Made by a program: the position numbers and the translations under genes. The notes beneath the pieces are model-generated. The model searched no databases. It saw only the letters and a program-made list of their open reading frames with translations, and had not been told where the DNA came from. Below, piece after piece: positions 32,759-64,000 of a DNA stretch of 64,000 bases. This DNA comes from Apostichopus japonicus. Its lineage: Eukaryota; Echinodermata; Holothuroidea; Aspidochirotida; Stichopodidae. Each line of letters begins with the position of its first letter. The first letter of the stretch is position 1. Location: the NCBI RefSeq assembly GCF_037975245.1, contig NC_092565.1:11092499-11156498 (forward strand). Direction: 5' to 3'.

Positions 32759-35700
32759 TGTCGTCGATTATCTATAATCAATTACAGATCCAGCAATAAA
32801 ATATCGATTATTGCATGTAAATCGTTTGTTTCCAGATAACGATTTGCGTTGGGCGAAAGATACAATACCGGTATTTTAGTGCGCAAAAATGTTCCTTTGT
32901 TGTTGAAGCAATTGTCTTTAGTTTTACGTTGACCTTTATGAACAAATCCAATCTGTTGCCCTCAAAAAATATTGGGGTGTGAACTAATCCAGAACTCGCA
33001 TTTGTTCATACTGTATAATTCCTGCCACTATTTAAACACGCATTACAACTGTAACTTGAATTAAAATTTAACAACAAATCTAAAAAATAAAATACAAAGT
33101 ATATAAATAAAAACACACACAAACAATCAGACAAGCAGAAAACCCCTGAGACTACGAAATGTTGACACGTAATCCATAATATCTGTAAATTAGTTTTAAA
33201 AAAAACTGTTATTTTTTCTTTCTACAAGTTCGCCTTAGTTGTACTGAAACGTTGATGCAAAGAAGGAAAAAATGGTGAAGGAAAATAAAAAGGAGGTAGA
33301 ATCCGACATATTAAATATGAATCTACTATAAATGATGCGTTATAACTTGTTCTACGCCCACAGTTAGATTAAACAACGTCATATTAATAGACAATGCTGC
33401 AGAACTAGTGAAGATGGTGACCACTCTTTGAGATATACAACGATAAATGAACTCAATGATTGTCCTTTCAAGTAACTACTTTGTTAGCCTATAATTTACA
33501 ATAAAACGTCGAGTTTTTAAAAAAATATTTTCATCGTTACATAAAAACCCGTTACGTCATCTTCCGCCACAAGATTCCCTTTGTATTACTAAAATTGAAT
33601 TATCATTTCATCTTTATACTGACCAAATTCATCCAAGTAATTAACTGGGTCGTTCCATCTACATGCGCTATGGATGATATAATAACATGTGGTAACATAT
33701 TACTAACGATAAATGGCAATAACATCATCCACCCGACCCTTATTTGCAAAGTAGGCTAGGGTGACATCGGTCACCGTCTTACATTTGGATGAAACTCGAT
33801 TGAGAGCACTGAGAATATTTTACAAGCTACAAGCCACCATTTACTGTAACTTAGTAACATAATCATATGATTCTGTTTCTTTGAACAGAGACCAGATGTA
33901 ACGTAATCATAACAACCAGCTTTTCTTTTAATAATGCTTGATGAAATGTACGCATAGTGAACACCAAGTTAATCGAACGACCAACATCCGACAAGTTGCT
34001 GAGTTTACAAGCAAGTCACCTATCGACACCGGCTACGACAAATCTTCACCCACAGCAGCATATGTACAGCAATGCAACTGATCAGATCGCTTTAATGAGA
34101 TAAGACTTTGAACCGATATAAAGAATACTTTCACTAAACACCCTTCCGAGTGGAATTTAAAATAAACTAGCTCAATACATATATAGATTTCTAAGCGAAG
34201 TAGACATGTTGTCCGCAAAATGTTAAGAATAATAATACATCGCATCTCTCCTTAACGCGACCGACCTATTTTTCAGTTGTAAAACCTGCATAACAATACA
34301 ATTTCCTCGATCCAGTTGTGTATCCGTAGCCTTGACATCGTCACGTTGCATGTATCGACACGTCATAAAGTGACGTCAAAACAAAGTATGTCCAAGAATG
34401 AAAAATGAGATGATTTACAAACAAGTCGAAAATTATCCTTAAAAGCACGAGTCATTTCACCTTAGACACACACACACATACATATATATGAGATTTTGCG
34501 TGAGAACCTGTCGAGAAATGGTTAGCTATGACACTCCGTAATAAGAAATACATGATCACAAACTATCACAGTCAAAAGATACCATAATTTAACCACAATC
34601 TGCAGTACTGCTTCCGTTACTTGATTCGTATCGGTATCGGAGAGAGAAAATTATATTCCGAAAGAAACTCAAACTCCCAGTAAATTGTTATTATTACATT
34701 TGATTGAAGTTCGAGACACTCAACCACTACCAGTGCTCATGCCTTCAAAGATCTATACAAAGCGATACACTAGCATACTACTTGTCGTGTGTGGGATAAG
34801 TGAACCGTGAATGAAGGTGAAATTACGGTATCGCATTAAAGCCATCGTAAAGAAACATCAACAACTCACGACTTTGGTGTTAGACTATTTCCCGATTTGA
34901 CTCTGCCATAGTAGGTATCTGAAACGGGCGAAAAGGAGGGGGCGGAGGAGGGGGTGGAGGTTGTTTTGACCCCCTTTTCCCCATATCAATTTGAGTTTTC
35001 GACCAAACCGAGTCAAATTTCAGGGAATGCCCTCTTTTGGGGGACGCTGAACAGATTTCGGACAAAATTGTTGAATACTAATGACAAGACATTTCATTTT
35101 TCGGAGATTCGAATGTAATCAATTTGTTAACATATATTAAAGAACACCCTTGTTAACTAAAACTGCAACAGCAATGGTTCAGAAGTTGAAACAGTGGTTG
35201 TCTTTTTAATCGGATTGATTGACCTTATTTGTAGACAAAGAAGGTAATCCATGTGGCCCTTGTTTGATTTGTCGAAACTAAAATGGCAATAATTTTGAAC
35301 AAAAATCATACACGGACCAATAAATAGTTTTTATAACAGGCTGGTTTCACACACACATACACGTAAAGAAACATATAAGAATTCACACAAAGTAATCAAC
35401 AAACGTATAATAATTACTGAACTTGTTAAAATCATTTTATTTGCAATCTTCATTTGAGCATCCTTGCTTTTAACAGGGGAGGGGATTACTAGTTCACCAA
35501 TTGGTGCTAGAGGTAGAGATAAGCTGGAACGGGGAGCACTATAGTCCCCTCGGTTAACTGAAAATAACAAGACATCAGTAAAGTACATAGCACACAAAAG
35601 GATAACACATCTATTTTCTCCTCAGTACACAAACGGACACATTTTGTACCAGGATAATGATTATTTACTTTTATCAGTTTATACCTCATTGCTCCCAAGG

Positions 35701-46200: not shown

Positions 46201-49200
46201 ACTTGTCTGGTAATTCTTGTCATCACCAGCAATTTCCAAACTTATAGCATAAAACAAATCATCCTCTTTTAAAAGTTCTGGTTGTAATTTGAACAGTGGT
46301 TATTAAATTTTCCAACCCCTCAGTTTGTGAATGTGAATGTAAGAGACTACTAACAGCTGGCAGGATAGGATATAAATTTCTGCATGTTTACCATAAAGGA
46401 GCAAAAGGAACAGAAAACTTTATAACACATCTAAAACCATCCAAGTCACAAGTCTTCCAGTAAATAGTGGCTGCTCATGCTAATCAAAATGGAACACCAG
46501 TATTCAAGTAATTTGTTTGGAGTTTTCAAAGAATGGTTTATAAAGGCAAAATGCTGATCATAAATGGAATCAAATTATATTACTAATGACATTAAATTCT
46601 GCCTCAAGCAAAGTCTTTGTTTTTCCCCAATATTTTCAGTTTTGAATCTACTTTGACTTTTAATCTATGACCTCCATAAAATGTTGTTGACTCATTGCAC
46701 TCAGTATAAAACATTCTACCTTTCTTTCACAACAACATTTAGTCAATGAGATCCAGTTCTTGAAAATACAAAATATTGACCTCAAACACATTAGCAAGAT
46801 TATAGGTCATACTACAGAACTGCTGTAACCCAACCCTACAGTTCAAGGCAGAACACAACATATCTTGCCATAAGTTGAGAACCCTTGACTGAAAGGAGAA
46901 CCTCATGAATATGAAATGTTTCAATGAAAAAAAAATAAGGACACTCACACTTTCCTGAGCATTCCATAACTGCAAGGCAGCCAAGACAGCAGAAAGATTT
47001 GTTCCTCTCTCCTCATCAAAGTCATCCTGCGAAAAAAAAAAAAAACCTGCAGATAAGCTTTCTACCTTTCTGAGATTTTGAGTCACCTGGCTAGCAGAGA
47101 GCATCACTAACATCAGATTAATAAATCAAGTTTGCCTGTATTACTCTAAAATAAATTTTCAAATGTGCATAAAAAAGAAAGGAAGAAGGGGCTTGAGATG
47201 GCTTTTACTCACACTGCTGTTTTTTATGAGGTCTTTGTAGATGTCAAGACATTCACTGTACTCTTCCAGACGATACAGCTAACAAGAAAAGGAGGGGAAA
47301 AAAGATTCAAAGAGAGAATTGAGCGTCAACTATATGAATACTTTAGTAGACAAAACTTGTTCAGTCTTGTCAGAGACCCTTCTGAGAAAAAATATCTTAG
47401 TGAATCACCTGTAACCAATGTCCAAAGCATTATGGAACCCACTGACACTATTTCAGAGCAAACAAGGGTAGGAAAAGCTTCTATTGATTTGCTAATGTCT
47501 ACGAGAAACAACTCCTGAAGAATACTTTCTACAGACAACTTTCTGAAAATTGAGACATTAAGCTTGTTCTAGAGACCAAATTTAAAGATGAAAAGCAAAA
47601 TATCAACAACAACAAAAAGGGGGGAGGAGTAAGTCCTCTACAAGCAAATTTGAAGTCTTTTGGATTCATCTCTTTTCATTAATGAGTAACTTTGAACATT
47701 ATCAATGATAATTCCAAATATGCTTGTACTCAAATGGTAAACATCTATAATCTTGGGATGTTGTAAGGATCCTGGTTTAGTCAAGATGTCGAAGCTGTAA
47801 TTAGTAGTCATTTTCTAGTGCTATCTCCAACGTACTCAGACATACATATAAACAAACACACTACAACATGAGTACATACTAACAATTCACAACTAACTGT
47901 TCTCCATAATGCAACTAAGTATACAAGCACCTGTGTCTCTATATGCTAGATTTTCCTTTTAAAACAATTGAAATTTGGGTAATGAAAAAACTAGTTTACA
48001 AATAAAGAGAGAAAAGACTGATTGAAAACAAACTGCTTATCTACTGCAAAATGTCTAGATGTAGGATCATAAATAAAAATACCTTCTTCAAAAGGCAACA
48101 AATAACGAACAAATTTGATGCACGGTAATTAACATGATAGCCACTTACCACTTGACCGAGTAATTCTTTCACCTTATCATCAGGTTCTGTGATATTACGA
48201 AGTGTTTTCAGAGATTCTGGAACTTTGTTCAGACGGTACTGGCAGTATGCTTTCTCAAACATCAGATCACTAAATGAGAAAGAGAACAATTGAATTTGGA
48301 TCATTTAGACAAACAGATAATCTTACATGTTGTAGGAGGATCAGGCTGATAGCCATGAGGTTGCAATATCTAGTGCTCACTGTTGTTTCAAAATAGTGTT
48401 TACAATAATACTGTAGTAGTTCAGAATGAACCATATGTTAGTAATCCAACAGGGTCTCCAGCAACTAATAATTTATAACAGACCTGTAAAAACACAAGCT
48501 CCTGTAAGCTGCCTGTCAGCAATGTTGTAAATATAGAATACACAAACAGCCCCTTACAACTTGCTCCTTACTATTCTCCCTTACCCCCACCCCCAAACAC
48601 ACACCAAAACGGAGAATAATACTAAGTAACCATGTTGGTGTTATGAGTAAAAGAAATTCCACATTTACTTATATTCCAAATATAGAAATTCATTCACTTT
48701 ATATGGAAGAAATTTCAAAAAATGTGTTATAACATGATCTCTCCTTTTTTTGCTTTGATGTTTATTTTCATCATATTTTCATAATATCTAACCAGAAACC
48801 ATTCATTATCATCATTTTTCTGCCGTGAAATTGTTTGATCCCATCTGTGTAATATAAACCAACAAGCCTTGCTTCATTGTTGTGTAATATTGAAAGGTTA
48901 TAAAATAAGTCTTTCAATTTGAGATGACACAAAAAGTTTATGTCGTTGGTGTATTATCTCAGATCATATTGTCCTCTTCAATATGAAATCAATTCAATAG
49001 AGTGAGATCAGTATCTCACCAATGGTAGAAGCTATGAAGTTGTAAGACTTATGTATTTCTTCTTACAGCCTTCTTATTTATCTAATGTCTTAATTAAGAT
49101 TCAAGATAATCCTGCACACAAGAAAATCTTTGCCAAATGATATTTTAGTAAAGGCATCCTGACCATTCTTATTTTCCCTAGGACGTTGTCAACTCACCTG

Positions 49201-52200
49201 GCAAGGTTCGGGTTATTTGCTATTTCCTTGATGGCTAGCGCAAAATCTGACTGATGTATAAGGCAGACAATCTTGCACTTAAAGGCTACGGCATCTTCTC
49301 GATTCAATTTCAATACTGAAACACAACAGGAAAGAAATATACCTTGTTTAGAGGGTATGTTGGCACAAATATATATTTTCAAGTGCCATGGATATGGCAT
49401 GTGATGTTCATTTATCAAGAGATAAATACAGTAAGGGGTTGCAATACTTATCTAATATATTACAGACCTTTTCTGACATTCTTAGTCCTAGTAGTACTTG
49501 CATACAGTATTTGTTCACTTCTCAATGCATTCTGACAGGTACTTGATATCTTAATAGTTAGAAAATTTCACTGGTTCACAATAGTAAGCATTTAGTAAGT
49601 ACTAAGTAGGCCTATGCTAGGCCTATTGTAGTTTAACATTAATTATGGGTGTAAAAGTGCAAGGGCCTAGGCTAGGGGTCACACTAATTAGCGTCAACTC
49701 ACGACAACTCAAGACAACAGGTTTAAAATACCATCAAATACAATTGATGTTATCAGAGTTACAGAGTATATCCGGAAACAAACTGACTAAAAAAAATATA
49801 TATATATATATATACTAAAAAAATATAAAACTGACTGGAACCAGCGTGCATACAGATCTTTCACGGGAAAAAAAGTTTTTGTCGTAAAAATCGCCAACTT
49901 TTTTCTAACGTTGAATTGGACGACGTGATGCCATTGCGCTTGCGCAATGACATTGGACCGAACCATTACACTACAGGTAAGTAATTTTTCAATCGAGAAT
50001 GGTGCCCACACACTGGTAACTTGGCAAAAGGCGACGAGCGCCATCTAATTTTACTTAACTACTTTTTATGACTGTTTTTCAGACAGAAACATGTCCAATA
50101 TAGAGTTTATTGCGTTGGGAAAGGGTCTGAAGTTCATAGCAACTCTAGTAAAACCTAAACGAAGTGATCTTTCTCATGTCATTAAAAGACCTTAAAAGAA
50201 AAATGAGAATCCGCTTCATCATGCAGAATAAAATGCAAAAAGGGATTACAAAATTCCGTCTACCCTCCACATGGTCACCTAACATGACTTTTAGTAAAAA
50301 TCTAGAGGACTATCTGGAAGCAACACAAACCGAAATGGCAAGTGTTACTATCCGAAACGCCAATAGCAACATGCATAAGGCGGAACGTTTTGCACTAAAC
50401 GCAATTAAAAACGACCGCTCTATTATTGTCAAACCCTTCGATAAAGGTACAGGCATTGCTATAATGAATCACTCAGACTATCAAGCCGAAATTGAAAGGC
50501 AATTAGCTAGTCACCACCAAAAGTTAAAAAGTGATATGACGTTTCAAACTAAAAGTTTAGTCCAGGAAACACTAATTGATATGTTCTCTGCAAAAGAGAT
50601 CGATAAAAAGCACCTTCGAGTACTTGTCACCATATAGCCACAAAATCCGCACACCGGTCATATATGTGCTACCAAAAATTCATAAAGCACACCGGCTAAC
50701 TCAAAATTTGCCGGTAGACCGATAATAAGTGGAAACGGATCACCGACCGAAAAAATATCGAAATTTGTGGACTATTTCTTGCTTCCTATTGTAATAAAAC
50801 AAAGCACTTATGTGAAAGACACAAATCACATTCTGCAAATTTTGGAAGCCACCCGTTACCCAAAACGGCAGTACTTGCTACACTCGATGTCGTCGCCATG
50901 TATACCAATACTCCCCACGAGGAGGCATTAGATATATGTCAAGAAGTCTCAGAAACTCTGCACACCCACTTGCCACTTTTAAAGGCTTCATTAAAGGGGA
51001 AATATTACGATACGCACGTCTCTGTAACAACAAGACTGACTTCTTAGAGAAAAAGAATGCGTTCACAGAGAAACTGTTACTCCGTAACTATAAGAAAGAG
51101 GAAATTGCCACAGCCACTAAAGGCATAAAATTTGAAAACCGTAGGCATTACCTCACTACCAATCCTAAACAAAAGGAACCACCACTGGTGTTCAAGCTTA
51201 CCTATACACCCCACATCAAAACCACGCATTCTAAAAAAGCACTTTTGAAACATTGGCACTTAATTTTGCAACACGCGGAATTATCCAAACTGTTTCCAAA
51301 AGAACCGATTCTTGCCTACAAAAGGGCCCAAAATCTCAAAGATTTACTTGTTAACTCAAGGTTTCATACTAACGAAGAATCAGCTGACTCTCAAGGTTCA
51401 CACGAAGCTCTTTTAGATGCTCTTATAGATGTACTATGAGTCCATAAAAGTCGTGCACAGAAAATAGATGCATTTTGAGAACGAGACGCTCATGCCGAAT
51501 ATAAAATATTCAAAGGCTTACTACTGATGAAGCTCCTCCTATAAAAGTTGAGAGCAGAAACCGGTCTAGTTGGTCATAACAACCTACGCTAGTCTTTCTT
51601 ACTATTAAAAGTACACTCAATTCACCTAATAGGTGCAATTATGTTTCACCATGATGGGCATACTATAAGTTCATGCTCTTCGGGCCCTCCCTTAAAAATA
51701 CATCAGGTTCTTGGCCACTACGTTGAGTTAGATAGTGTAAAACCGCCTACACCCCCATTTCAAGTTAATAATAATATATGTAAATTACAATGGAAAAACA
51801 ATAAGAAATATTCATAATTTTAAAAACATTCAATGATTTGACGGAGAGAATAATAAAACCAGGCAAAATGATAGTAAGCAAGACTCTGTTAAGTTGATAA
51901 TAACATATGTAAATTACAATGGAAAAACAATAAGAAGTATTCATTATTTTAAAAACATTCAATGATTTGACGAAGAGAATAATAAAACCGGGCAAAATGA
52001 TAGTAAGCAAGACTCTGTAAAATTAATAATAACATATGTAAATTACAATGGAAAAATAATAAGAAGTATTCATTATTTTAAAACATTAAATAATTTGATT
52101 TGGAGTTCATTCACCATACTTTGGTGCTTTATTACTACGACAACCCACCTTACCGACACTGTACACAAGGTACTTTCCAAACCTAGCACAAACCTACCCA

Positions 52201-53183
52201 TATTATAATGGTTCGGTCCGATGGTATTGCGCAAGCGCAATAGCATCACGTCGTCTAATTCAACGTTAGGAAAAAGTTGGCGATTTTTACGACAAAAACA
52301 TTTTTTCCCGTGAAAGATCTGTATGCACGCTGGTTCCAGTCAGTTTTAAACGTGTTTCCAGATATACTCTGATAACATCAATTGTATTTGATGGTATTTG
52401 ATGTTATTTTAAACCTGTTGTCTTGAGTTGTCTTGAGTTGTCGTGAGTTGTCGTGAGTTGATGCTAATTAGTGTGACCGTAGGCTAGGCATATGTTTTCA
52501 CTACATTGCTACAATTTGACCTCAGGTTACAAAACAACCTGGATGGCTGACTGACAGAATACTGCCCAAGCTACAGTAGTTCCATTGATACCTCGACAAC
52601 AATGCCTGGTCCTAACCACAGGCACAGGCACGTTATCTGGGTGTATAAATCCATGTTTATATATACTATACACCTAGACAACATTACGAAATACGAGTGC
52701 CTGTGGTCCTAACCGGGGAATAATTTATCCAGTATTGCATACCATGCCCTAGGCCTATGCAAAATGGGTAGGCCTAGACTACAATATAAGAGTAAGACTG
52801 TCAAGAGCAATGATGTTGGCTAGTACAAGGCTATAGCAGTTTTTGTACACAGGAACCATCATATTTTACAAGACACAAATTTCAGAACCCTTAAAACAGA
52901 TACATGCAATTTGAACAATACGTTGTTCACTGCAAACGACTACAAACGGAAAAGTACTGTCGGTACTTAGCCAGTTACTGTTTGCTACCGTATGTTACAA
53001 TTGAAGAACCTAGTAATAACGAGTTTTAATTATATTGGTATGCTTTATCGAGTTTTTATAATCAAACTTACATTTGCTGGTGACGGCAATTATTCTTGGG
53101 TTGGAAAAATCTTCATTAAGCTTGTATCGGTTCAATTCCGTGTATAATGGGGTAATTTTGTCCTTCGGTTGTTTGGCAGCCAT
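37073..53183 (-). CDS. Signal recognition particle subunit SRP72 (full coding region, 17 exons)
   Basis: SRP72 binds SRP68 and SRP RNA in the signal recognition particle, which targets ribosomes with signal peptides to the ER. Seventeen exons join in consistent phase to 2,004 nt, 667 residues, close to the vertebrate protein (about 670). Residues 1 to about 490 form the tetratricopeptide-like helical repeats that bind SRP68. Recognisable blocks are FEKAYCQYRLN, YDL-type IYKDLIKN, DDFDEERGTNLSAVLAALQ, IGLLAVASNNII, QNVFDSKKKI, and the DIKTLAQLISAYS block. The C-terminal part has the Lys-rich tract, then KLPKNYDPSATPDPERW (the conserved RNA-binding motif, PDPERW about 575-580), GKGTQGATSGASE, and a final Lys-rich tail ending GGW. 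The start ATG opens MAAKQPKDK in exon 1. All introns are GT-AG. Intron 1 (3.76 kb) holds a transposon insertion. There is no truncation or frameshift. Confidence 0.96.
38268..38424 (-). CDS. SRP72 coding exon 16
   Basis: Residues 563-614, with KLPKNYDPS, the RNA-binding motif PDPERWQPMRER, and GKGTQGATSGASE. Donor GTAAGT. Confidence 0.96.
38891..39102 (-). CDS. SRP72 coding exon 15
   Basis: Residues 492-562, from KTFARRLSQELPPVKEL through DVDALE to a Lys/Arg-rich end (QKKRKKKRKG). Donor GTATAT. Confidence 0.92.
39656..39733 (-). CDS. SRP72 coding exon 14
   Basis: Residues 466-491, ANPDDIKTLAQLISAYSKFD. The donor GTATCC is weak; it was chosen because it keeps phase with exon 15 and matches the spacing of other SRP72 proteins. 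A later GTATAA site would extend the exon. Confidence 0.82.
40381..40484 (-). CDS. SRP72 coding exon 13
   Basis: Residues 432-465, with LNTLLRESTDFKMRHGQSQA. Acceptor GTCGCAG, donor GTAAGA. Confidence 0.93.
40676..40836 (-). CDS. SRP72 coding exon 12
   Basis: Residues 378-431, with HVNKACDVLQ, PGVVSTLVALYTNMDDVDSA and SWYKTQG. Donor GTAAGT. Confidence 0.95.
40862..40915 (+). repeat. Hairpin repeat gaagatcctgctaggat, copy 1 (SRP72 intron 11)
   Basis: gaagatcctgctaggat is followed by gaaaacgtcaag. The stem GATCC/GGATN with a short loop is followed by GAAA. It matches the copy at 41652 and resembles the 3' tail of Penelope-like elements. Confidence 0.6.
41459..41528 (-). CDS. SRP72 coding exon 11
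   Basis: Residues 355-377, DYISKENASIRVKLSLAQL then FLSQ, plus the first base of codon 378. Donor GTTGGT. Confidence 0.93.
41652..41712 (+). repeat. Hairpin repeat gaagatcctgctaggat, copy 2 (SRP72 intron 10)
   Basis: gaagatcctgctaggatcga is followed by aacgtcaggcaaacttac. About 45 of the first 50 bases match the copy at 40862, in the same orientation. The stem (GATCC-TGCTA-GGATC) followed by GAAAC and GTC resembles half of a hammerhead ribozyme core. Confidence 0.6.
42197..42319 (-). CDS. SRP72 coding exon 10
   Basis: Residues 314-354, FENCRKQLKKL through REKRIEKAFETLQ. Phase 0 at both ends. Confidence 0.94.
43580..43711 (-). CDS. SRP72 coding exon 9
   Basis: Residues 270-313, beginning DQNVFDSKKKI and ending LFYLYTNQ. 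Donor GTAGGA. Confidence 0.95.
44447..44504 (-). CDS. SRP72 coding exon 8
   Basis: Residues 250-269, PSDIGLLAVASNNIISLNK, a strongly conserved block. Acceptor preceded by a long T-run; donor GTGCGT. Confidence 0.95.
45508..45620 (-). CDS. SRP72 coding exon 7
   Basis: Residues 213-249, with EAELGIIRVQRGYVLQLMGK and MALYNQVVK, a typical TPR helix pair. Donor GTAAAG. Confidence 0.95.
45878..46018 (-). CDS. SRP72 coding exon 6
   Basis: Residues 166-212, with YELSFNKASLLAGKGKFKEA and LDHAEELCKEG. Donor GTGGGT is followed within 40 nt by a long G-run on the transcript strand. Confidence 0.95.
46949..47026 (-). CDS. SRP72 coding exon 5
   Basis: Residues 140-165, DDFDEERGTNLSAVLAALQ, a highly conserved SRP72 block. 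Donor GTGAGT. Confidence 0.95.
47213..47278 (-). CDS. SRP72 coding exon 4
   Basis: Residues 118-139, LYRLEEYSECLDIYKDL then IKNSS. Exactly 22 codons. Of two overlapping GT sites, the one that keeps phase with exon 5 is used (GTGAGT). Confidence 0.94.
48149..48269 (-). CDS. SRP72 coding exon 3
   Basis: Residues 77-117, with FEKAYCQYRLNKV and KVKELLGQV. Donor GTAAGT. Confidence 0.96.
49198..49315 (-). CDS. SRP72 coding exon 2
   Basis: Residues 38-76, containing NREDAVAFKCKIVCLIHQ (compare the conserved KVVCLIQ block). Acceptor TTTCAG, donor GTGAGT. Confidence 0.95.
49677..49968 (+). repeat. Left inverted terminal repeat of the intron 1 insertion
   Basis: It matches the reverse complement of 52206-52478, including gactggaaccagcgtgcata, gatctttcacgggaaaaaa and a cattgcgcttgcgcaatg palindrome. 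It differs by an (AT)n run at 49797-49814 that is absent from the right copy, and by having fewer copies of the acgacaactc word. Confidence 0.92.
50091..51439 (+). pseudogene. Penelope-like element reverse transcriptase, frameshifted and internally deleted
   Basis: Fragments follow the order of Penelope-like proteins. An N-terminal block (IEFIALGKGLKFIAT) lies at about 50099-50143. KPFDKGTGIAIMNHSDY is near 50440-50480. PVIYVLPKIHKAH is near 50650-50690. RPIISGNGSPTEKISKFVDY is at about 50714-50775, TLDVVAMYTNTPHEEA near 50880-50930. The C-terminal part includes RYARLCNN, LLKHWHLIL and KRAQNLKDLLVNS (51007-51360). The reverse transcriptase palm with the catalytic YxDD-type motif is missing between about 50960 and 51000. 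No GIY-YIG endonuclease follows. At least three frame breaks are present, so it cannot make a working enzyme. Confidence 0.88.
51518..51580 (+). other. Hammerhead-ribozyme-like motif (degenerate)
   Basis: CTGATGA at 51524-51530 and GAAA at 51557-51560 are separated by a segment in which GCTC can pair with GAGC (helix II). Downstream, CC and GG before TC could give a short helix III. Helix I does not pair convincingly and the closing pair of helix II is A-A. Penelope-like elements are known to carry hammerhead motifs, and this lies just after the reverse transcriptase remnant. Probably inactive. Confidence 0.4.
51768..52100. repeat. 128-bp tandem repeat, nearly three copies
   Basis: taatatgtaaattacaatgg or a close variant recurs near 51774, 51904 and 52031, each followed by aacaataag and aaaacattcaatgatttgac. 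The third copy is incomplete. It lies between the reverse transcriptase remnant and the right terminal repeat. Confidence 0.92.
52206..52478 (-). repeat. Right inverted terminal repeat of the intron 1 insertion
   Basis: Reverse complement of 49677-49968. It has four copies of a 10-bp word (gagttgtcgt/gagttgtctt) near 52418-52460, against two in the left copy, and a repeated tttgatg word, so the ends have changed independently since insertion. Confidence 0.92.
53072..53183 (-). CDS. SRP72 coding exon 1
   Basis: Residues 1-37 with the first base of codon 38. It starts MAAKQPKDKITPLYTELNRY and ends before donor GTAAGT. Confidence 0.9.
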
Positions 53184-53298
53184 CTTCACGTCAAGTATAA
53201 CTGCTAATTTACATGCAATAATCGTGGGTACTCATTCTGCGAAATATTATTAATGCGGGTCTCGTGTACACGTCTGTGTAGACCTGTTAGCAAACCAG

Positions 53299-53306
53299 TG
53301 ACGTCA
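53299..53306. promoter_or_regulatory. CRE palindrome TGACGTCA upstream of SRP72
   Basis: A perfect cAMP-response-element octamer 116 bp upstream of the SRP72 start codon. Such sites bind CREB/ATF factors and are common in housekeeping promoters. The transcription start is not known, so its role is inferred from position. Confidence 0.45.
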
Positions 53307-53309
53307 CAT

Positions 53310-53530
53310 AGTGAGATACTCGAAGAAGGTTATATGGAACGCCAATAGAGCCAAAACAGCAATCGTAGAATCAAAAGTCGTCGCAGGTTCAAAACCACTC
53401 GCAGCGTACACAGTCGTAGCATCCCAAGATACCGCAGAATTTAAGCACTGTAGAATCAAATACAATCTCAGCATCAAATTTCTATCAAAGTCAATCGCAG
53501 CAATTTACTTCCAACAATCGTATTGTCAAG
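53310..53530. repeat. Cryptic short repeat rich in tcgtag/gcagaatcaaa
   Basis: Words such as gtagaatcaaa, tcgcagc and tcgtagcatc recur every 15-22 bp. The region is an open frame without family resemblance and is better read as a decayed minisatellite beside the SRP72 promoter. Confidence 0.4.
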
Positions 53531-54013
53531 AGTCCATGTTATCTTAATTTCTACTTTCCCGTGTAAACAAAATCTAATATAGGCCTATGCTTAATTCTTA
53601 GTAGTAAGTAGTAAGTTGAGTCTCGTCTATCCGACATGCTCAGTGATTAACCTCCGCCACGTATCACGATCTTGCGCTTGGTTTATGCATAATTTTTGGA
53701 CACAATAATACGTAATACATGCAGAGAACGGTCACATAATCCTTCTTCCCATCCGTCACTTGGCATTGTATCGTTATTTTTCTTAAAACTGACGAGAAAC
53801 CTTGACACCTGCATCACCTTGGTGAGGTATCCCCTTCCACATTTGATTTTTTTAATGTTTGTGGTTGCTTAGTTGCGTGGTGGTGTTATATAGTTTTAGT
53901 TTTGTTCAATATTACTACACTTTCCAATTGAATGCTAGGGATGTAATAATCATACAGAAATGTCCAAAACAGGAAATTTCACATGGGTGTAACGATATCA
54001 TAAGTCAAGACAT
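53531..54013. other. No gene recognised
   Basis: AT-rich sequence without an exon or element I can support. Confidence 0.4.
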
Positions 54014-54014
54014 A

Positions 54015-54045
<31 letters not shown>

Positions 54046-54074
54046 GTTGATTGTCGATATTTTGGCGCATAGTA
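54014..54074. repeat. (AT)n run with dispersed 40-bp flank
   Basis: An (AT)n run at 54014-54039, then the reverse complement of the flank found at 23600-23640 (cctttggttgattgtcgata, ttttggcgcatagta) with one mismatch over about 37 bp. The same order, flank plus microsatellite, occurs at both loci. Confidence 0.85.
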
Positions 54075-54201
54075 CCTCGTATCCTCGTATATGTATGTAT
54101 CCTCGCATATACGTTTAATTGTGTGGTCGTTTCGAGCGCTCGTAAAGTGAGACATCCGTTAGGGCCCCAGTTGGTGTGTCGTAGCCAATTCCTATACTCA
54201 C

Positions 54202-54309
54202 CGTCTAGTCCGATTTCTCTCAGTGTGTCTTCGAGCATCGAACGATCAACATAGAATCTTCCATTAGCCTCCCGTGAGTTTGGGCCCCCGCGAAGTTCAG
54301 GTATCGTCA
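54202..54309 (-). CDS. Exon candidate of unknown gene
   Basis: On the minus strand a long pyrimidine tract ending ATCGATTCAG precedes an open segment of about 35 codons (with PELRGGPNSREANGRFYVD and MLEDTLREIGLDG), closed by a strong donor GTGAGT at 54201. The splice signals are good, but I recognise no family and no partner exons. The hydrophobic stretch seen if the frame is read further upstream is the translated pyrimidine tract and not a signal peptide. Confidence 0.3.
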
Positions 54310-56395
54310 CTGAATCGATAATGAGGAAAAGTTGAAGATAGACAAAAAGTAGCGGTAGCAACCATTGAAATCCGTCTTGTAACCGCCATAGTTGCTTTGT
54401 AACGTTCTGTCTGTTTACCCTTCGAGGTAACAATGAATAAAATCAGCCCTGTGCGGATATTTAAGGCCGAGGTTTAAACTGTATTTTATGCGGGTGTGGT
54501 CCCTGAGCACCGCCTCCGATTTCTGAAATGTTCAGGTTAAGCTGTGAATGATTTGCGAACCGTTATCTGATAGGTGTTATCTTCATCACCCATGTACAGT
54601 TTACTTTCATAATTACTAACCAAGGTATCAGAAGCAGGGGCGACCGCACCCCTCCCCCCCCCCCCCTGAGCATATTTTCTTGTATGTTTTTATGATATCG
54701 CTAGTAAATTCAAGCTTATAGATGCAACTTACAATGCCTGGGAAGTGCCATTTCCAGCGATCTGGGAGGCATTTTCAGCCAACATTTTCGCCAATTATAG
54801 CGCCAACCATAGTGGCGCTACGCTTAGATAGTTAATGCAGAATCTACGGTTCTGATAGTTTGCCTACAGGTTCGCCCCTTCCTTGGCAAATTCCTGGCAA
54901 CGCGATTAATTGTGAGAAGCTCGTCTGCAACAATATCTAAGTTATACTGATCCTGGATAAACACCGCTTTATATCAAGACAAAGAGGTCAATGAGTAAAC
55001 CAATTCAGAGCATTATGAGGCACGTATGTAATTGTCGCACTCATTAACCAAATAGCAGTTAACATCCCAATCCGACGAAAAAAGCTTTTCATGTTTGCTA
55101 ATAGTAGTTGTACCAGAGGTCATTGTCTTAAACTCCAAAAGTTACAAAGTAGAATTAATATACGGCATAGCATGGTTGTGAATGAGTAGAATGGTTTGCC
55201 TGAGAAAGGTGTACTTGCAAGTAGTGTGAATGGGTTTAAGAATGCTTTGGGACAAATACTTCAGCATTGTTCTCTCTCCTATAGAGTCTTTGATATAGGG
55301 ACTTAAAAGTCCTTCCTGATCCTGTTTTCTACTAAACTAAACGAAACTAAGGGCCGGCGAGAGTTGGATCACTTTCTCAAATAATGAGTGAACACATCCA
55401 ATTCCCCAAGTTACTGTATGCCGTTCAGCCATGCATGGTGAACGAAGTTCTTACGAAACGGAACAGAACAAGACCCAAGCGAAACCCAGGCGCGCATCTC
55501 ATTTTCAACACCCCCCCCCCACCCCCATAAAAAAAAGGATTAAAGTAGCCTATACTTTTTAGCAGACTTGCGTGTATACCTTATCATAGACACCTAAATT
55601 ATAACCCTAAACATGCCTAAGAATACATTATTTTACGTCTGTATTTTGTTTTCTGATGGAGGGGAACGTCTTCAACGACCTCTGGATCAAATCCCCTTCC
55701 TATTTTTTGGATCAACACATGAAACCGCATTTCCCAAGTCGCAAACCAAAAATCAGAATACGAGCTGCTTATACAAGAAGTGGAGATTTATCATTTACAG
55801 AGTATATAATTTTACGCCTCAGGGTAAACTGCTGCTTCGGTCCGATGGTTGCATGATATGGTACCGTTATTTTTTTTCTTTCTTTCAACTGATGAGACGC
55901 CATGACATGGTATCAGCAAAATAACACGGATGGTCCCGCAGTTCAAATTGGTCATTCTTTTGAATCAGAAAGCTATAGTTCAACAATTCAAGATTGTTTT
56001 TTACACTTTCTACAGGGAAGGAACAATAGAGGATATTTTCCAAGTTAAGTTGCAGAGCTTTTTTGTAGCAAATTAACTGTTGTAGCCGATTAAAGGCATG
56101 GAAGACTCGCCCCAAACCGCGTGCCGCCCTCTGAAAAAAAGTTAACTTTCCGTTGCTTGCAAGTAAAGTTTTCTTTTTGTTGCTACAAAATGCAGACAGT
56201 AATGAAACTTGATACCTTGTTATCTTTTATCTGGACCTGAGGACCAGGGAGTTCCATAACAACTCCCTGCTGAGATGTCCATCGCTGCTATGTACACTGT
56301 GTTGTGGGTATTGACCTTAGCTGCATATATTGACTGTACACTAGTGTCTAATTACCGACGGTAGCAAGCTATGTGTGTATTTTCTGGGATCAATG
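54310..56395. other. No gene recognised
   Basis: It contains a C-run at 54650-54667, a fragment related to the G-tract family (ggcgctacgcttagatag near 54813), a C-run at 55509-55526, and open frames at 55613-55924 without family resemblance. No splice-bounded exon stands out. Confidence 0.4.
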
Positions 56396-56799
56396 GTGGT
56401 GTCTACAGTGGCGTCGCCAAGGGGGGGGGCGGGGGGGGGGGGGGCAGGGGGCATGTGCCCCCTGGAAAACCTAGTGCCCCACGAGTGCCCCCCCATCTGA
56501 GATTTGGGTTGGTAAAAAAATATATATATATTTTGTTATATTCAACTCCCATCATCTGAGTTGGTTTTTCATAAGGACAAAGAAGCACAGTAATTCGTAT
56601 TTTCTTCAAATGAGCTGCGAAAAAGTGAAAAAGTTTATCCTTGAACGTCGGGTATCGAAGTCGTAACCCGCGCCATCACAACAGGTGTCGATATTAACAT
56701 TGAATGTGTCAGTGCTCACGCCATACCAGCGGATATACACGTCCGCTTCGCGAGCTACATGACTGTGAGAAGGGAGGGTACTGCAATATGTTGCCTTGG

Positions 56800-56843
56800 C
56801 AGGGGCGTATCCAGGATTTTCCAATAGGGGGGGGGGGGGCGCC
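56800..56843 (+). mobile_element. Left inverted end of a 2.15-kb G-tract element
   Basis: caggggcgtatccaggattt, then tccaatag, a G-run and cgcc. It is the reverse complement of 58911-58950 apart from G-run length. Confidence 0.7.
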
Positions 56844-56999
56844 AGGCATGAATGATCGCCGTCCTGGGGGATGTGCTAAGGGGAGGGGTGTACAATTTTT
56901 GCTTTCAAAGAAGGGCTGAAATGCAAAATGGTGTCATATGCATGGGCGGCGATCCGTACTTCCGAGTGGGGGGGGGGGGGATATGACCTTGTTGACTAT

Positions 57000-57215
57000 C
57001 TAAGCGTAGCGCCACCATGAGTTGGCGCGAAGCGTACAAGAAAATTTTGGGATTAACAAACCCTCCATGGCCGGAAACGGCACTTCCCGAGGTTTCCAGG
57101 CGGCATATACCCAACTGGATACGCCCCTGGGTTGGCGCGGAGCGTACAAGAAAATTTTGGGTTTTTCAAACCCCCGGATGGCCGGAAACGGCACTTCCCG
57201 AGTGTTTTATGCTGC
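57000..57215. repeat. 110-bp tandem duplication
   Basis: gttggcgcgaagcgtacaag with the following gccggaaacggcacttcccg occurs at 57021 and again at 57131. The first half also matches 17060-17135, so a dispersed repeat has been duplicated in tandem here. Confidence 0.85.
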
Positions 57216-58910
57216 GAATACCTAGCCCTAAAATATGGGTCTCAAGCCTGCAATTTCTCAGATTGCACGTAAAAGTCTGTAAAAACATAGTAATTTGTAT
57301 ATTCGATGGTGTTTTAAGAGAGTAGCTATTACTCGTAGTGTACTCGCAAAGACGTTTTTGAGTGTAGTAAGGGGATGTTGGAGAACTGGCTGAAATGAAG
57401 CAAGTCATTGGCCTAAGACGAAGTTGTGTTGCGCTTACCGGTACTCACACTCACTGCTTCCACTTTTCACGGGGCGTGAAGACGCGGTTGGGGTGACAAT
57501 GTGGTCTATAGCCAGGGGACGGGCCGACGGTCCCCCCAGCATTTACTAAAATTATTACACCTATATAGTATACGTGTGCATCGGACAGATCGACAAGTAT
57601 GCATTGAAAAATGGGCAGATGCACGTTTCGGAGCCTTGGTAAATATTGGGGGGCTTATCATGCATTTGCCCCCTCAACTTTTTCATTGGGGGGAAGAGCC
57701 CCCCAAGCCCCCCGGTTCCGCCGCCACTGCCCCCTCCCCCTTTGGAAAATTTTCGCATACGGAGGATGGGCTAGATGCAAAATGCTGCCACATTTGATGC
57801 TAAATTCGATCTGAAGATATCTCCAGAAATTGCTATTTTTGAGGTAATGATTTTAACAAGGCGCAGAATTTTGCAGAGGATATGAACCACATGCTGTCGA
57901 TATTATGCCTAACCCTATCAATAGAACCTACATTTGTTGAATTAATGTGTGCATGACCCCCGACTCCTTTCTTGTCCTTCTCGTTTTCTCCCATTATCTA
58001 TTAAGATGTAACAGGTTCCAGCATCGTTATTGGCTCCTATCAGGGATCTCACCATGCAATCCAAAGTTGGATCACACATCGAGTATGGCTCAGTATGCAG
58101 GTGTGAACATTCGCCATTTGTTCCTACAAGCATCTGACCTCAAATGACCTCTGCACCCCCTACACAACAGGGTAAATATATGGGTCCACAAATATAGGCA
58201 AGTATGGTGCCTGAGGACCCTCACATTCTCACATTTCGTCAGCTCCTAACCTGTCAACCTCAGACCAAGCAGGGGCGTATCCAGGGGGGCGCAACAGGCG
58301 CGCCCCCCCCCCCTATTGGCCGTCATCAAAAAAAAAAAGTTTAGCAAAATAAAAAATAAAAAATAAAAACATTGATGACGACCTTTATGTGAGATGTCGG
58401 TGATCGCTCAACCCCCCCCCCCCCCCTCCCGTATGCTTTATTTTTTGTTTGCCAAAAAAAGGTTCTGGCGAAGTTCGGCGGCATAATAGTTTTAGAAACA
58501 TAGATGGTAATTGTGTTTGTATTATCACTATAAACACTAAATGACATGCCAGCCATACTAAATTGTGCATTTTGTGTCCATATTTACTGGAAATGTTGCC
58601 TATTATTAAGGTCGAAAAATGGATCACATATGGCCATGGGCGGCGATCCTGGGTGGAGGGGGGGATATATCCTTTCATGAAAATGGGTGGAGGGGATGTA
58701 ATGCACCATTTCCCCCCCCCCCACCAAATGCCAGGGATAAGAATATTTTCATGCCACATTTATGCATCTTCGTTAATGTACGGCTCTTTTTTAGCTTCAT
58801 TTCTCGCCTACCATACACGCAGTGCGATCTTTTCAAATAAAGCGTCTTTATAAAGCAAAAATAGTTGACTGTAGGCTTCATTGGCCCTATAACAACAAAA
58901 TGTATTATTG

Positions 58911-58950
58911 CGCCCCCCCCCCCCATTGGAAAATCCTGGATACGCCCCTG
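58911..58950 (-). mobile_element. Right inverted end of a 2.15-kb G-tract element
   Basis: Cgccc-run then attggaaaatcctggatacg and cccctg, the reverse complement of the end at 56800. No clear target duplication flanks the pair. Confidence 0.7.
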
Positions 58951-59165
58951 CAACCGATGGTGGCGCTCCGCTTAGACAGTCTCTACACATAAGCCCCCCC
59001 CTAATAATTTTCCCGTTCCGCCGCGCCTGGAGGGGGGCACCCCCTCCCCTAAGACCCCTCCCCCAGGACGGCGATCCGTATCCACCTAAGTGCCCCCATC
59101 AAATGCTGGTGCCCCCCTGTGCCCCCCCCCCCCCCAGACTGAAAAGTCTGGTGACGCTACTGGGT

Positions 59166-60952
59166 GTCTAACACTTCTGTTACATCTCATTCAGACTAGG
59201 TCAGATTACCAGCATCAGATGTTTGAATGTTTCTTTGTGCGCGAGTCTCCACTCCCTTTAATATTGTTTATCTAGATTCACACCTCCTGTGCGGAGTCTT
59301 GTTACAGTATTGCGGTAACCTGTTTTGGAAGTAATTGTAAATGTATCATACTGAGTACTTTTCTCTGTGTTTGTGTCGGCATAGTGAATGAGTGTAAAAC
59401 TGACTCAGCAGTTTGAATAATATTAAGCATTGAACCACTTGGGACCTGGAGACAATTTAATCCTGTCTTGAGGTTAAGGCCCACCCGTTACTTATATTGC
59501 TGACCCATTGTCTTCATTTCTCTGACAAAAGGAAAGGAAGGTTGCAGATACAATACATTATATTGATGGTTACACTGTTACAATTTCATACAAGTATAGC
59601 GTTTTCAATTCATACATATTGGTATAGTTGTAAATCACTTAATCTCGTTTGTTCGAATTAATGATATAAGCGCTGCAATCGGGGCGGCTGGACGTATTAC
59701 TAGGTCGAAAATATCGCGCAAGCGTATCTGATGCATTTGAGACGGCCAATGTGCCGCCAGGTTGAGACACATGCAAAGGCCCTTTCCCCATTCTCAGTGA
59801 TCGTGAAAGATGTTATAGCATATTCTGCAAGCAATGTGTCATCTTGGGCCTGTAGCGTACGTAGCCGCTCGGATCACTGAACCAGTAGAAAATTAATTCT
59901 TCAGTCCGCCCCTAATTAAACGTGGATGGGTCACCGTGAGGCGCAGTCGGTCCCCAACATGGAGCCGCCATCGTTGCTTCGGTAAGGGTCGCAGGCGTCA
60001 CGGTTTGTCGTGATCAAGATTGTCGTCGCCATCGTCTCAGCGCGTCACCGTGATATTACATACCATCGACAACGTCGTGCACCCGGTCATCGGCAATACG
60101 AACTTCATTTTAATCATATATCTTTATCGTCAATGACAGATACATCACTATCATCGTAACTGGTGGTCGCCATAATCATCGACAAGGACATTTTGATCGC
60201 CATGTCCCATCGTTACGTCGTATCCGCGATCGTCAAGGTTACATAATCCTCTTAGACATTTTGATCGTCATCATGATGTTAAAGGTCATGGACACCGCCG
60301 TCGGCGTAAGTATGCATGGTTATCATAGTCATGAAAGTACGATCATAGTTGTCACTTATCGTTGTCACGGTAACGGTCAAATCATAACGCCCCTCCATCG
60401 CCATGGTAATTCTGATGCTGGCGTTATTAACAATTTTGTTGCAACACGTTGAATTGAAGAGATTAATTAAGCTGTTAATTCGTCATTTTGTAACATTGAA
60501 ATTGTTACAATGAGGACTGTATGAGCGTAATCCATAATTTTGTCGCAAAATGATGAATTGTTGAATTTCATAATCGATCAATCATCTTTTTATTGGAAAT
60601 TGTTAAATAATAACAGATTGCATCATGGTCTATTGCAGAACTCCGTACATTCACAGTGCCCAACTGAAGAAGCGCCCTGATTGTAACATATTCCTATGAC
60701 GTAACGCCATAGGGAAACACACACTGTGCGTATCGTTCCCATTGCCTAACACACGAATCACGTATCGTTCCAACCATCATTCGCCACGTTATGGGAAAAC
60801 GGACCGTATCGTTCCACGTATCGTTCGAACAGTACGTTAGTATGTATTCTGCTATGGTGTTATATCATTGGACAATGCACAAATAAGACACCTAGACCAC
60901 CAGTTTTTCATCTATCAAGACAAGTTATAATGTGGCAAGTTGCATTGCCTAA
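59166..60952. other. No gene recognised; CG/ATC-word-rich segment in the second half
   Basis: From about 59930 to 60430 the words catcgtc, cgtcatc and catggt recur at irregular spacing on both strands, as in a decayed tri- or hexanucleotide repeat. Around 60730-60840 the word cgtatcgttc occurs five times. No exon is recognised. Confidence 0.5.
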
Positions 60953-62072
60953 TGCAGGCGTCACACTATCCCGAAGTTGACACCAGATGGCCATACGAAT
61001 ATGGAATTTTGAATTTCGCACGAATATGGTCCCGAACTTGGTAAACAGCCAATCAACAGCCGAAGCGAGTACGACGCCTACAGAAGGTCACGCGATGGCA
61101 CCCGAACCACACACGAAGGCAAAACGAAGACGTGCATTTCTATTAAGAAGTTTACCCGCAGGACACACGAATGCCACACGGAGGCCACGCGGTGGCTACA
61201 TGACGACGTATATCGATAAGTACATTATCGAATGCTATAGGAAGGCAAATAGAAAGAAATGACAAAGTAAAATAAGATAATGCTTTGTTATTGTAAGAGG
61301 AGGTGCTGGGCCTGTAAGAGTTGCCCATCATGCTCTCTGAGGTACATTAAAAGAAGCAATGCTGCTGCCTTCTTTTCCCTGGTTGTCTCATCACCAAAGT
61401 ATGCCATTCTGCAGGAACTGAATTGTGGTTAATTGTGATTGTGGTTTTGGGAGTTACATACGCCTCTACTCTGTAGAGTTGCTCAGGACTGACTGAGGAA
61501 GATGCTCTGAGGCTGGCCTTCATATGTCCACGTTACCATGACACCTGGGACACTTGAGGTTCTCAAATTCGGCGATATTCGCCGACACCATGGTCCAATC
61601 TCGATGTCATCGTACTATAATACGATGGTTATACGCGACGGCATTGCGAGGGCTTCACGTAGTCGTGTTGCCTTCATAAGACAATCGGCAGCTTCTTGTT
61701 ACCTTCGTATTTTCTTCGTTAGGCGAAAATGCGAGATGGCACCAATGATCACACGAAGTAAATACGAAGATGACACGATTTGATAAGATGCCCTCACGAT
61801 GGTATTACGAAGGGCAAAATGGACACACGAATGCAACACGAAAATGAACCTTCGCAATGTCTTCCGGCTTTTTTTTTTTGGCATGCCACAGATTTTGCCA
61901 CCGCTCACGAAGTTGCTGCCGGAGCCTGAAAAACTCCACCGGCGGTTATACGATGGCTTAAGATGCCCTCACCAATGGCCCGATGTTTTTACGATCAGAG
62001 CCGAATTTGAACATTTTCTTTATCGTGTGTCCATCTGGTGTCAACTTCGGGACAGTGTGACGCCGGCATAAA
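60953..62072. mobile_element. 1.1-kb element with terminal inverted repeats
   Basis: The left end (about 60957-60990, ggcgtcacactatcccgaag then ttgacaccagatgg) and the right end (about 62035-62066) are inverted repeats over some 35 bp with one or two mismatches. Inside both halves are many short words of the form cacgaa(g/t)gc and cacg(c/a)gatggc, as subterminal repeats. A short minus-strand frame lies in the middle. This is probably a non-autonomous DNA transposon; the superfamily is not determined. Confidence 0.8.
61288..61407 (-). CDS. Short frame inside the 1.1-kb element
   Basis: An ATG-started minus-strand frame of 39 codons (MAYFGDETTREKKAAALLLL, then a Leu/Gln-rich end). Its composition recalls the helical N-terminal pieces of PIF/Harbinger-type transposon proteins, but it is too short to assign. 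Base composition differs from the CGAA-rich sequence on both sides. It may be a leftover of the element's own gene. Confidence 0.25.
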   Translation of the reverse strand: MAYFGDETTREKKAAALLLLMYLREHDGQLLQAQHLLLQ

Positions 62073-62639
62073 ATGCTGTGGGTTCGTGGACAACTCTGAC
62101 ATCCACAGGGGGTCCGTGAGGGGATAAAGTTAGGGAAACCCTGCTAAAGAGAATTTCGACGTATTTAGATCATTCAATAGGAAGGAACAGGAGTACACAC
62201 ATGAGGTACGGATGTGAACATTAAAAATGAGGGAGATAACATTTATGTCACGAAGGTTTACACACCATCAAGAACACTGCTCATTCATTTCGAAGCTTTA
62301 CAAAATTCAAGTAGAATATTTGTATAGACATTCATATTTGGGATTTCAACTATGACGGGGATGGGTGGAGGGGGAAGAGGTTGGCGTGAAAGTTAGGGGA
62401 CCAAATTTGGAAAGGTTCAGGCCTATAGTCATGGAAACGTGTGAATGTCTCCTTACAATGAAAAGCAAAGCTTTACATCATTCCTTTATGAGCAAGAATC
62501 TTCATACTATTTTGTTTCAACATAAAAGATGAAAATGGTAGTTTTTTTGTACGAAAATGAAGAAATTCTTGGAAAACAAAGCGAAAAATATGGAACGCTT
62601 CACGATTTTGCGTGTCATCCTTGCGCTAAGAATCGCCAG

Positions 62640-62790
62640 ATCTTAGAGCTATTTTAGAGCAATGTTAGAACAGATTTGACCAATGAGGTATCTCCGTTGT
62701 TCTAAAATATATAATTTTAGATCAATGTTAGAACACGTCTCAGCCAATGACAATACAGTTTATATTTTTAGAGCATGACGTCAGTGCACC
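62640..62790 (+). promoter_or_regulatory. Possible promoter with two CCAAT boxes and a CRE
   Basis: CCAAT occurs at 62680-62684 and 62744-62748, and a perfect TGACGTCA at 62776-62783. A duplicated segment (tttaga(g/t)caatgttagaac) surrounds the CCAAT boxes. A related ttttagaac...caaccaatcg segment is at 63672-63725. The arrangement resembles a compact promoter, but it could be a repeat that happens to hold these words. Confidence 0.35.
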
Positions 62791-62932
62791 TGAAATTCTG
62801 AATACAACTTTTAGTTGCGAACAACTTGCGCTGCAGAAACTGTTATCTCTTCAAAATAATACAATTACAACGCGAATCGTAGACCAGTCTCCTGAAATTC
62901 GTAAAGGATTGATGGACATATTAACATCGCCG
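62747..62932 (+). CDS. Possible first exon of unknown gene
   Basis: A 62-codon open frame starting at ATG 62747 ends in phase at a good donor (CCG|GTAAGA, 62933). The later part (LALQKLLSLQNN, PEIRKGLMDILTS) has protein-like composition. I recognise no family and see no second exon before the window end. Confidence 0.25.
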
Positions 62933-62950
62933 GTAAGAAATAGTCTAAAG

Positions 62951-64000
62951 GATTTGACAAAGTAGATATATTCTGTATCTTTCTGTATCGTCACTAGGCA
63001 GGTATTTATCACAACGTTACTTTACTGATATAACGGTTCCGCGAATTTGTAATTAGACTTGGCCTACTGACACTGTACTGTGTCGGTTGCAGTACTGAGC
63101 AAGGCCTTGTTGTTATTAATTTATTATTAATTGCACTTAATTGTTAATGCTAACTGCTAACGTAAGTCCATAAAAGCCAACTCTGTAGTTCAGTATGTTA
63201 AACAAACCGAGGTTGGCTTATAATATTAACAAACAATACAGCACTCGATTTTATTATACAATTGGTGTTGTCACATTTGCATTTCCTAGGCAAATAATAA
63301 TTTCGGGAGAACACATGCGATTAAATTCCTCATTCGGTCGGTCGGTTGGTTCATTGATCGTCGCTCAACATAATAGCATAGGCTAGTGCTATGGTTACAT
63401 GATGTAGGTAATACTGAATGAAATTGGCATAAAAAATACTTGACAACATCGGTATTCTGCCCGGAGGCCGGAATGCCAAATATCATTGTTTGAGCTATGC
63501 TTTTTACTTTAATAAATGAGCTATCAGAGCATCTCCTCAAAGTGATGATATATCCACCCCCACTCCTCCACTACGGTATTTTAGCCACTGGTTAAGACAA
63601 TGAATTCCTTCGTTACCGTATCTATTTTATTTTCTTTCAGCCCACTAGCTTCATTATGCCTCTGAAATTTTAGAACATTTTAAGACGATTTCAACCAATC
63701 GCATTCATGGTATGTTCTAAAATTGAACAGTAGTTATCTGTATCACTATCAAGTGCTGTGACATTGAATCTTTGGTCTTTTTCTCTCACTAGTTGGGACT
63801 CGAGTGAATTACAGATATTGCAGTTTATTTCCAGTTTTCTGTGTGTTTTATTGGATTGAAGCTACCATTACTGAAAAGGAGTGTCTTTGTAAGTTTTTAA
63901 ATGAAAACAAAGTAATTTTCAGAATGAAATATGACGCAAACTTTTACAGTAGCGTCTATTCAAATAAGCACTGTATGTTTCGCATACTAGTTGCGCGAAT
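62951..64000. other. No gene recognised
   Basis: AT-rich sequence to the window end without a supported exon or element. The segment at 63672-63725 is related to the CCAAT-bearing repeat near 62660-62750. Confidence 0.4.

Follow-up and report, generated by a model that had tools for sequence, protein, structure and literature searches.

A Penelope-like gene remnant between long inverted repeats in a probable SRP72 intron, and its possible carriage by a foldback-type DNA transposon

Genomic setting

The window analysed here (the whole stretch of DNA, 64 kb in length) carries SRP72 on its minus strand. Comparison with solved SRP72 chains places residues 138-162 within 46742-47125 (E 0.001), residues 76-119 at 48146-48277 (E 1.3e-7) and, as a weak match, residues 34-70 near 49215-49325 (E 0.14). 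Upstream of this matched exon sequence lies a decayed element of about 2.8 kb that is bounded by inverted repeats (Table 1) and whose gene runs opposite to SRP72. Because it is upstream of the SRP72 residues matched, the element is probably located in SRP72 intron 1, as the original prediction had placed it, although exon 1 itself was not located in 52479-64000 using one loose pattern; the sole match to that pattern, at 55016-55123, was not accepted.

Table 1. Coordinates of the element, its component parts and its flanks. Positions are those of the window.
Feature	Position	Strand	Comment
Left flanking direct repeat, TAGGCTAGG	49668-49676		9-bp match, one-base offset
Left terminal inverted repeat	49677-49982	+	Inner edge carries a 5' splice-site hexamer
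10-bp tandem unit CAACTCAAGA, 2.4 copies	49695-49718	+	Outer part of left repeat
AT microsatellite	49796-49814		In left repeat
Predicted exon 1 reading frame	49835-49976	+	In left repeat; ATG at 49928; ends CAG/GTAAGT
Predicted intron, 106 bp, GTAAGT...TTTTTCAG	49977-50082	+	Frame kept on joining the ends
Probable Penelope-like protein remains	50083-51436	+	Six frame segments; named from motifs
Interior stretch after the Penelope-like remains	51437-51761		
129-bp tandem repeat, 2.6 copies	51762-52098		Adjoins right repeat on its inner side
Right terminal inverted repeat	52192-52478	-	GTAGGT on the minus strand where the left repeat has the donor
Second 10-bp tandem unit GTATTTGATG, 2.6 copies	52384-52409	+	In right repeat
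10-bp tandem unit GTTGTCGTGA, 4.4 copies	52417-52460	+	In right repeat
Right flanking direct repeat, TAGGCTAGG	52480-52488		One extra base, 52479, before the repeat

Among the other features of the window, we note a 471-aa open frame on the minus strand (31355-32767) with a match to HNOBA (E 1.9e-7) and sub-threshold matches to NIT and to the start of the guanylate cyclase domain; the gene to which it belongs, as one exon, is probably that of a guanylate cyclase. Region 11168-12627 contains open frames on both strands that are built of repeated peptides, for example CFSWLHTDVNRDLVF, and these point to a minisatellite array. Three open frames at 3002-5311 share the peptide ITKTRVSSTPRLILMSMGVS and the peptides next to it, which suggests locally duplicated sequence.

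Terminal repeats and flanking direct repeat

The two inverted repeats terminate at the same base, left and right, and share three ungapped pairs of arms: 49677-49718/52437-52478 (95% identity), 49726-49759/52366-52399 (100% identity) and 49817-49982/52192-52357 (90% identity). When 49677-49976 is aligned, gaps allowed, to the complement of 52200-52478, there are 234 matches and 15 mismatches, with gaps of 20, 10, 8, 41 and 2. The inverted-repeat score is 336, and the maximum among 473 other segments of the window used as controls is 50. The larger differences between the arms mostly reflect changes of copy number in short arrays; one 10-bp unit is present in 2.4 copies in the left repeat against 4.4 in the right, the right repeat exceeds the left by one copy of the second 10-bp unit, and the AT microsatellite of the left repeat falls within a 41-bp stretch that is missing from the right one. 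Neither a third copy of the terminal repeat nor a second copy of the element was found within the 64-kb window, where the other matches to the repeat are to AT microsatellite only, and exact patterns drawn from the repeat have no match in the viral contigs or genome contigs of the non-eukaryote collections.

The element is flanked by the 9-bp direct repeat TAGGCTAGG, in which the right copy is offset by one base, and the same arrangement can be described as an 8-bp duplication around 49676-52479. Five of the nine bases are G or C. Random pairs of positions match over at least 8 bp in 51 of 400,000 cases and over at least 9 bp in 20 of 400,000; when only the right position is varied, 0.035% of positions match the left flank over at least 8 bp, the left flank itself being among the positions counted. 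The shorter string TAGGCTAG is present four times on the plus strand of the window (two of these being the flanking copies) and twice on the minus strand, and the two flanks of the element, when aligned, also form an imperfect inverted repeat of 9 matches, 2 mismatches and 1 gap. Because of this recurrence and the near-palindromic character of the flanks, the direct repeat is described only as a probable target duplication, of 8 or 9 bp. The anatomy of the element is as the original prediction described it, in that the long inverted terminal repeats stand far above the control maximum and the probable 8-bp target duplication is still judged probable, here as a 9-mer with a one-base offset.

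The interior gene

The interior gene very probably derives from a Penelope-like element (PLE). Its frames include GKGLKF, IIVKPFDKG, VLPKIHK, GRPIISGNGSPTEKISKFVDY and LATLDVVAMYTN, which we take to be motifs of the PLE protein, together with a stretch ending in LKDLLVNSRF that presumably corresponds to the thumb. The reading frame has undergone four small frame changes and, as read from these motifs, a large loss between motif A of the reverse transcriptase (RT) and the thumb, such that the RT core following motif A appears to be missing. The Penelope remnant that had been proposed is recognizable from such motifs, whereas searches of the interior frames against Pfam, NCBIfam and PDB returned no match in support of the name. 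A scan of 15 of the 27 frames (the other 12 run antisense to those of the PLE, or lie in or beside the repeats) gave no match to a transposase, and none to a GIY-YIG endonuclease when sub-pieces and a read-through were also included; the endonuclease may have been lost through decay.

Weak Pfam, NCBIfam and Rfam matches in the element fall below curated cut-offs and are attributed to chance, the best of them (DUF2374, E 0.005) being to a frame that is AT-rich and lies on the strand opposite the 129-bp array. A weak PDB match (E 0.83) is likewise judged to be due to chance, and a structure predicted from the single sequence of the last protein piece was set aside (mean pLDDT 41.8).

The copies of the 129-bp array, which lies past the PLE remnant on the side of the right inverted repeat, show 93% matches, and no other part of the window matches the array at E 0.01. 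At 51407-51431, where the last PLE frame ends, a 12-bp unit is present in 2.1 copies, and because of this location the C-terminal residues of that frame may be a local duplication.

Six pieces of the protein were used to search the window for other PLE copies by tblastn, and none was accepted (best E 1.2). Pattern-matching stretches were recovered with three protein pieces in the viral contigs (21, 8 and 19) and with one piece in the genome contigs (130), with no tblastn relative in either, and two pieces gave no tblastn match among phages. Two degenerate PLE motif patterns are unmatched in the viral contigs and a third matches only a single record (L001), which was dropped as a PLE relative; its frames, read by eye, look like those of phage genes. 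No Rfam hammerhead was detected within 49400-52800 (E up to 5) or within 49660-50000 (E up to 10). A regular expression for the hammerhead core matches six times on the two strands of the window, including a core-like string at 51524 that is outside the repeats, has no Rfam match and was rejected.

A predicted splice joins the left repeat to the gene

Each strand of the window has the string CAGGTAAGT only once: the minus-strand copy is at 31097, and the plus-strand copy, at 49974, coincides with the inner edge of the left repeat. The last base of TTTTTCAG is 50082, and eight bases separate it from the ATG of the PLE frame. With the predicted 106-base intron spliced out, an open frame of 47 codons within the repeat would run on in phase into the PLE frame, and because the predicted intron joins both frames in phase, the terminal repeat and the PLE-derived gene look like one unit. 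The open frame alone is weak evidence, since 9.5% of 20,000 random positions likewise have, in a fixed phase, an upstream frame open for 46 codons or more, and the putative donor at the inner edge of the repeat appears to be the stronger part of the link between repeat and gene.

Toward the inner end of the repeats lie both the ORF start and the 5' splice site, as predicted here. Neither repeat contains a copy of 50083-50300, the segment after the predicted acceptor, above control levels (286 controls each), nor does 51437-52190 have similarity above control to the ORF start. The six frame segments, which were picked by hand and after the fact, include no stops in 444 codons, where 1.95 would be expected from the divergence of the repeats; this is consistent with a gene that was open at the time of insertion.

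Origin of the element

The interpretation we prefer, and whose chances we put at about even, is that this is a non-autonomous foldback-type (Mutator-like) DNA transposon with a Penelope-derived inner gene. The terminal repeats would be recognition ends bearing the 10-bp tandem arrays, and a transposase supplied from elsewhere would have brought the complete element into the SRP72 intron, leaving a duplication of 8-9 bp. Transcription of the inner gene would start within the left repeat, which would hold exon 1 and its 5' splice site, and splicing across the 106-bp intron would fuse exon 1 in frame with the PLE-derived frame; the copy would then have decayed after insertion. This scenario combines the repeats, the flanking direct repeat, the tandem arrays and the layout of frames and splice sites, which are read directly in the DNA, with a transposase acting in trans, transcription, splicing, class II ends and a PLE derivation of the gene (from its motifs), all of which we infer.

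Like foldback and Mutator-like elements, the element has long terminal inverted repeats that contain tandem arrays, and its one copy has a flanking repeat (9 bp with the offset, or 8 bp) within the 8-10 bp of their duplications. The tandem arrays of unequal copy number, which separate an outer from an inner part in each repeat, are newly recognized here and resemble a foldback-transposon layout, the likeness being one of layout. Also in favour of this reading are the termination of the repeats at the same base left and right, directly followed by the 9-mer, and the appearance of repeat and gene as one unit. Counting against a foldback-type transposon, no transposase was seen in the scanned frames of the element and no second copy in the window, and the flanking duplication could have arisen by chance in near-palindromic flanks. 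The repeat also seems to hold an ORF start, at the ATG at 49928, as do the pseudo-LTRs (pLTRs) of PLEs.

The same observation leads to a different account, in which an internally deleted PLE is bounded by inverted pLTRs and the repeats represent its 5' region (promoter, exon 1 and ORF start). The inverted copy would have arisen as the element was reverse transcribed, by template switching or self-priming, with the element's own endonuclease accounting for the duplication; we consider both this identity and this route to be real possibilities, if well short of likely. Hammerhead ribozymes are reported in PLE terminal repeats but are not known to be required in every family. Excerpts of PMC3846280 provide precedents in Adineta vaga, where inverted pLTRs occur with a 10-bp target duplication and internal deletion, and also describe head-to-head as the most frequent of the inverted layouts, because of which we infer that the ORF-start side of a pLTR belongs at the outer ends. 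Here, however, both repeats have the ORF-start side innermost, the window shows no copy of the repeat in direct orientation, no hammerhead is matched, the 10-bp tandem arrays are foldback-like and the duplication is not AT-rich. The foldback-type transposon is preferred for these reasons (the inward ORF-start side, the presence of two repeat copies only, the missing hammerhead and the base composition of the duplication) and because 50083-50300 has no copy in the repeats; the layout, the tandem arrays and the lack of a hammerhead match favour a DNA transposon moderately.

Nested insertions are common, and a Penelope copy could have inserted into a short non-autonomous inverted-repeat element already resident in the intron, in which case the 129-bp array and 51437-51761 need not be PLE parts. 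We find this improbable: a clear inner duplication is absent, the only direct match of at least 8 bp between 49940-50110 and 51400-52230 being the AT-rich 8-mer TAATTTTA, and the PLE ATG follows the predicted acceptor by just eight bases and in phase with the repeat frame. That two unrelated insertions have similar ends, or that the arrangement arose by chance, is highly improbable; we found no support for it, and it is largely refuted by the inverted-repeat score together with the matching 9-mer in the flanks.

The original prediction posed the right alternatives, namely that a PLE lineage makes these repeats or that a DNA transposon captured a PLE. Its premise that inverted repeats and a target duplication are foreign to Penelope fails, since A. 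vaga PLEs have both according to excerpts of PMC3846280. Because published PLEs have inverted pLTRs, inverted ends alone are not proof of a DNA transposon, and a test of whether repeat and interior always occur together is not a clean one, because PLE pLTRs also carry unrelated sequences (PMC3846280, in excerpts).

If the ends are of class II, then a DNA transposon would both carry a retroelement gene and express it, the repeat providing the first exon, and this would be a simple way for new hybrid elements to arise; if they are pseudo-LTRs, the element would be a PLE with a less usual inverted arrangement. More speculatively, there could be a chimeric family in which both class II repeats carry an inward promoter, a first exon and a 5' splice site, although we think its existence rather unlikely. 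It is similarly doubtful, if conceivable, that any interior would be expressed through the exon of the repeat, and that here a Penelope-type RT was captured and spread with the transposon. Among the titles and opening parts of abstracts listed, in sources outside subscription journals and Repbase, we found no class II element with a PLE gene.

Comparison with known elements

The closest PLE counterparts are Pen2, Pen2a, Pen5 and Pen6 of A. vaga, which like this element have a PLE between inverted repeats, theirs being about 200 bp in the excerpts of PMC3846280. Pen5 and Pen6 are bounded by inverted pLTRs, the Pen5 ORF contains a spliceosomal intron, and the Pen2a pLTR takes in the first 12 codons of the ORF (PMC3846280). 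Inverted pLTRs are described with 9- or 10-bp duplications, and one internally deleted copy has inverted pLTRs and a 10-bp target duplication; unrelated sequences, including an intron-containing host gene, lie between PLE pLTRs, and a host gene so carried is flanked by a duplication of 8 bp (PMC3846280). The authors of that study would expect the less usual inverted arrangement to come from self-priming on a sense template, and leave the matter open (PMC3846280). The present element shares with A. vaga PLEs the probable duplication (9-10 bp in some of them), the apparent internal deletion (in one) and the predicted ORF start within the repeat (in Pen2a). Pen2a, as far as the excerpts describe it, has a direct pLTR pair besides the inverted one, with the ORF-start side presumably outermost, whereas the element described here has its ORF-start side inward, two repeat copies only and 10-bp arrays. 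In the Poseidon PLE PAc of Anolis carolinensis the gene is also read from the region after the terminal repeat, but no counterparts of the tandem arrays, the hammerhead at the pLTR-ORF junction and the GIY-YIG endonuclease of PAc were found here (PMC11167929, in excerpts). PLE endonucleases are described there as preferring AT-rich targets (PMC11167929).

Foldback elements are described as having terminal, tandem-repeat and inner domains around a variable middle, and duplications of 8-10 bp (PMC4079207, PMC3169594, both in excerpts). In Tm1 of root-knot nematodes, 45 of 53 elements have target duplications of 8-10 bp, the terminal inverted repeats of one element are on average 93.15% identical, and both the exons and the introns of a transcript, Cg-1, lie within the element (PMC3169594). 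The excerpts of these sources report no Penelope-type gene in the middles of Tetris or Tm1 (PMC4079207, PMC3169594). With Tetris of Drosophila virilis and Tm1, as these are described, our element shares long inverted repeats, internal tandem repeats, duplications of 8-10 bp and a variable middle that often lacks a transposase, the likeness being one of description. The tandem unit of Tetris is given as about 220 bp, compared with 10 bp here. In the TU elements of sea urchins the long inverted repeats have an outer domain of tandem repeats, the duplications are of 8 bp and the middles are unrelated, and the likeness of our element to them is drawn from these features. For sea urchin foldback elements, PMC4079207 (in excerpts) cites Lieberman et al. 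1983.
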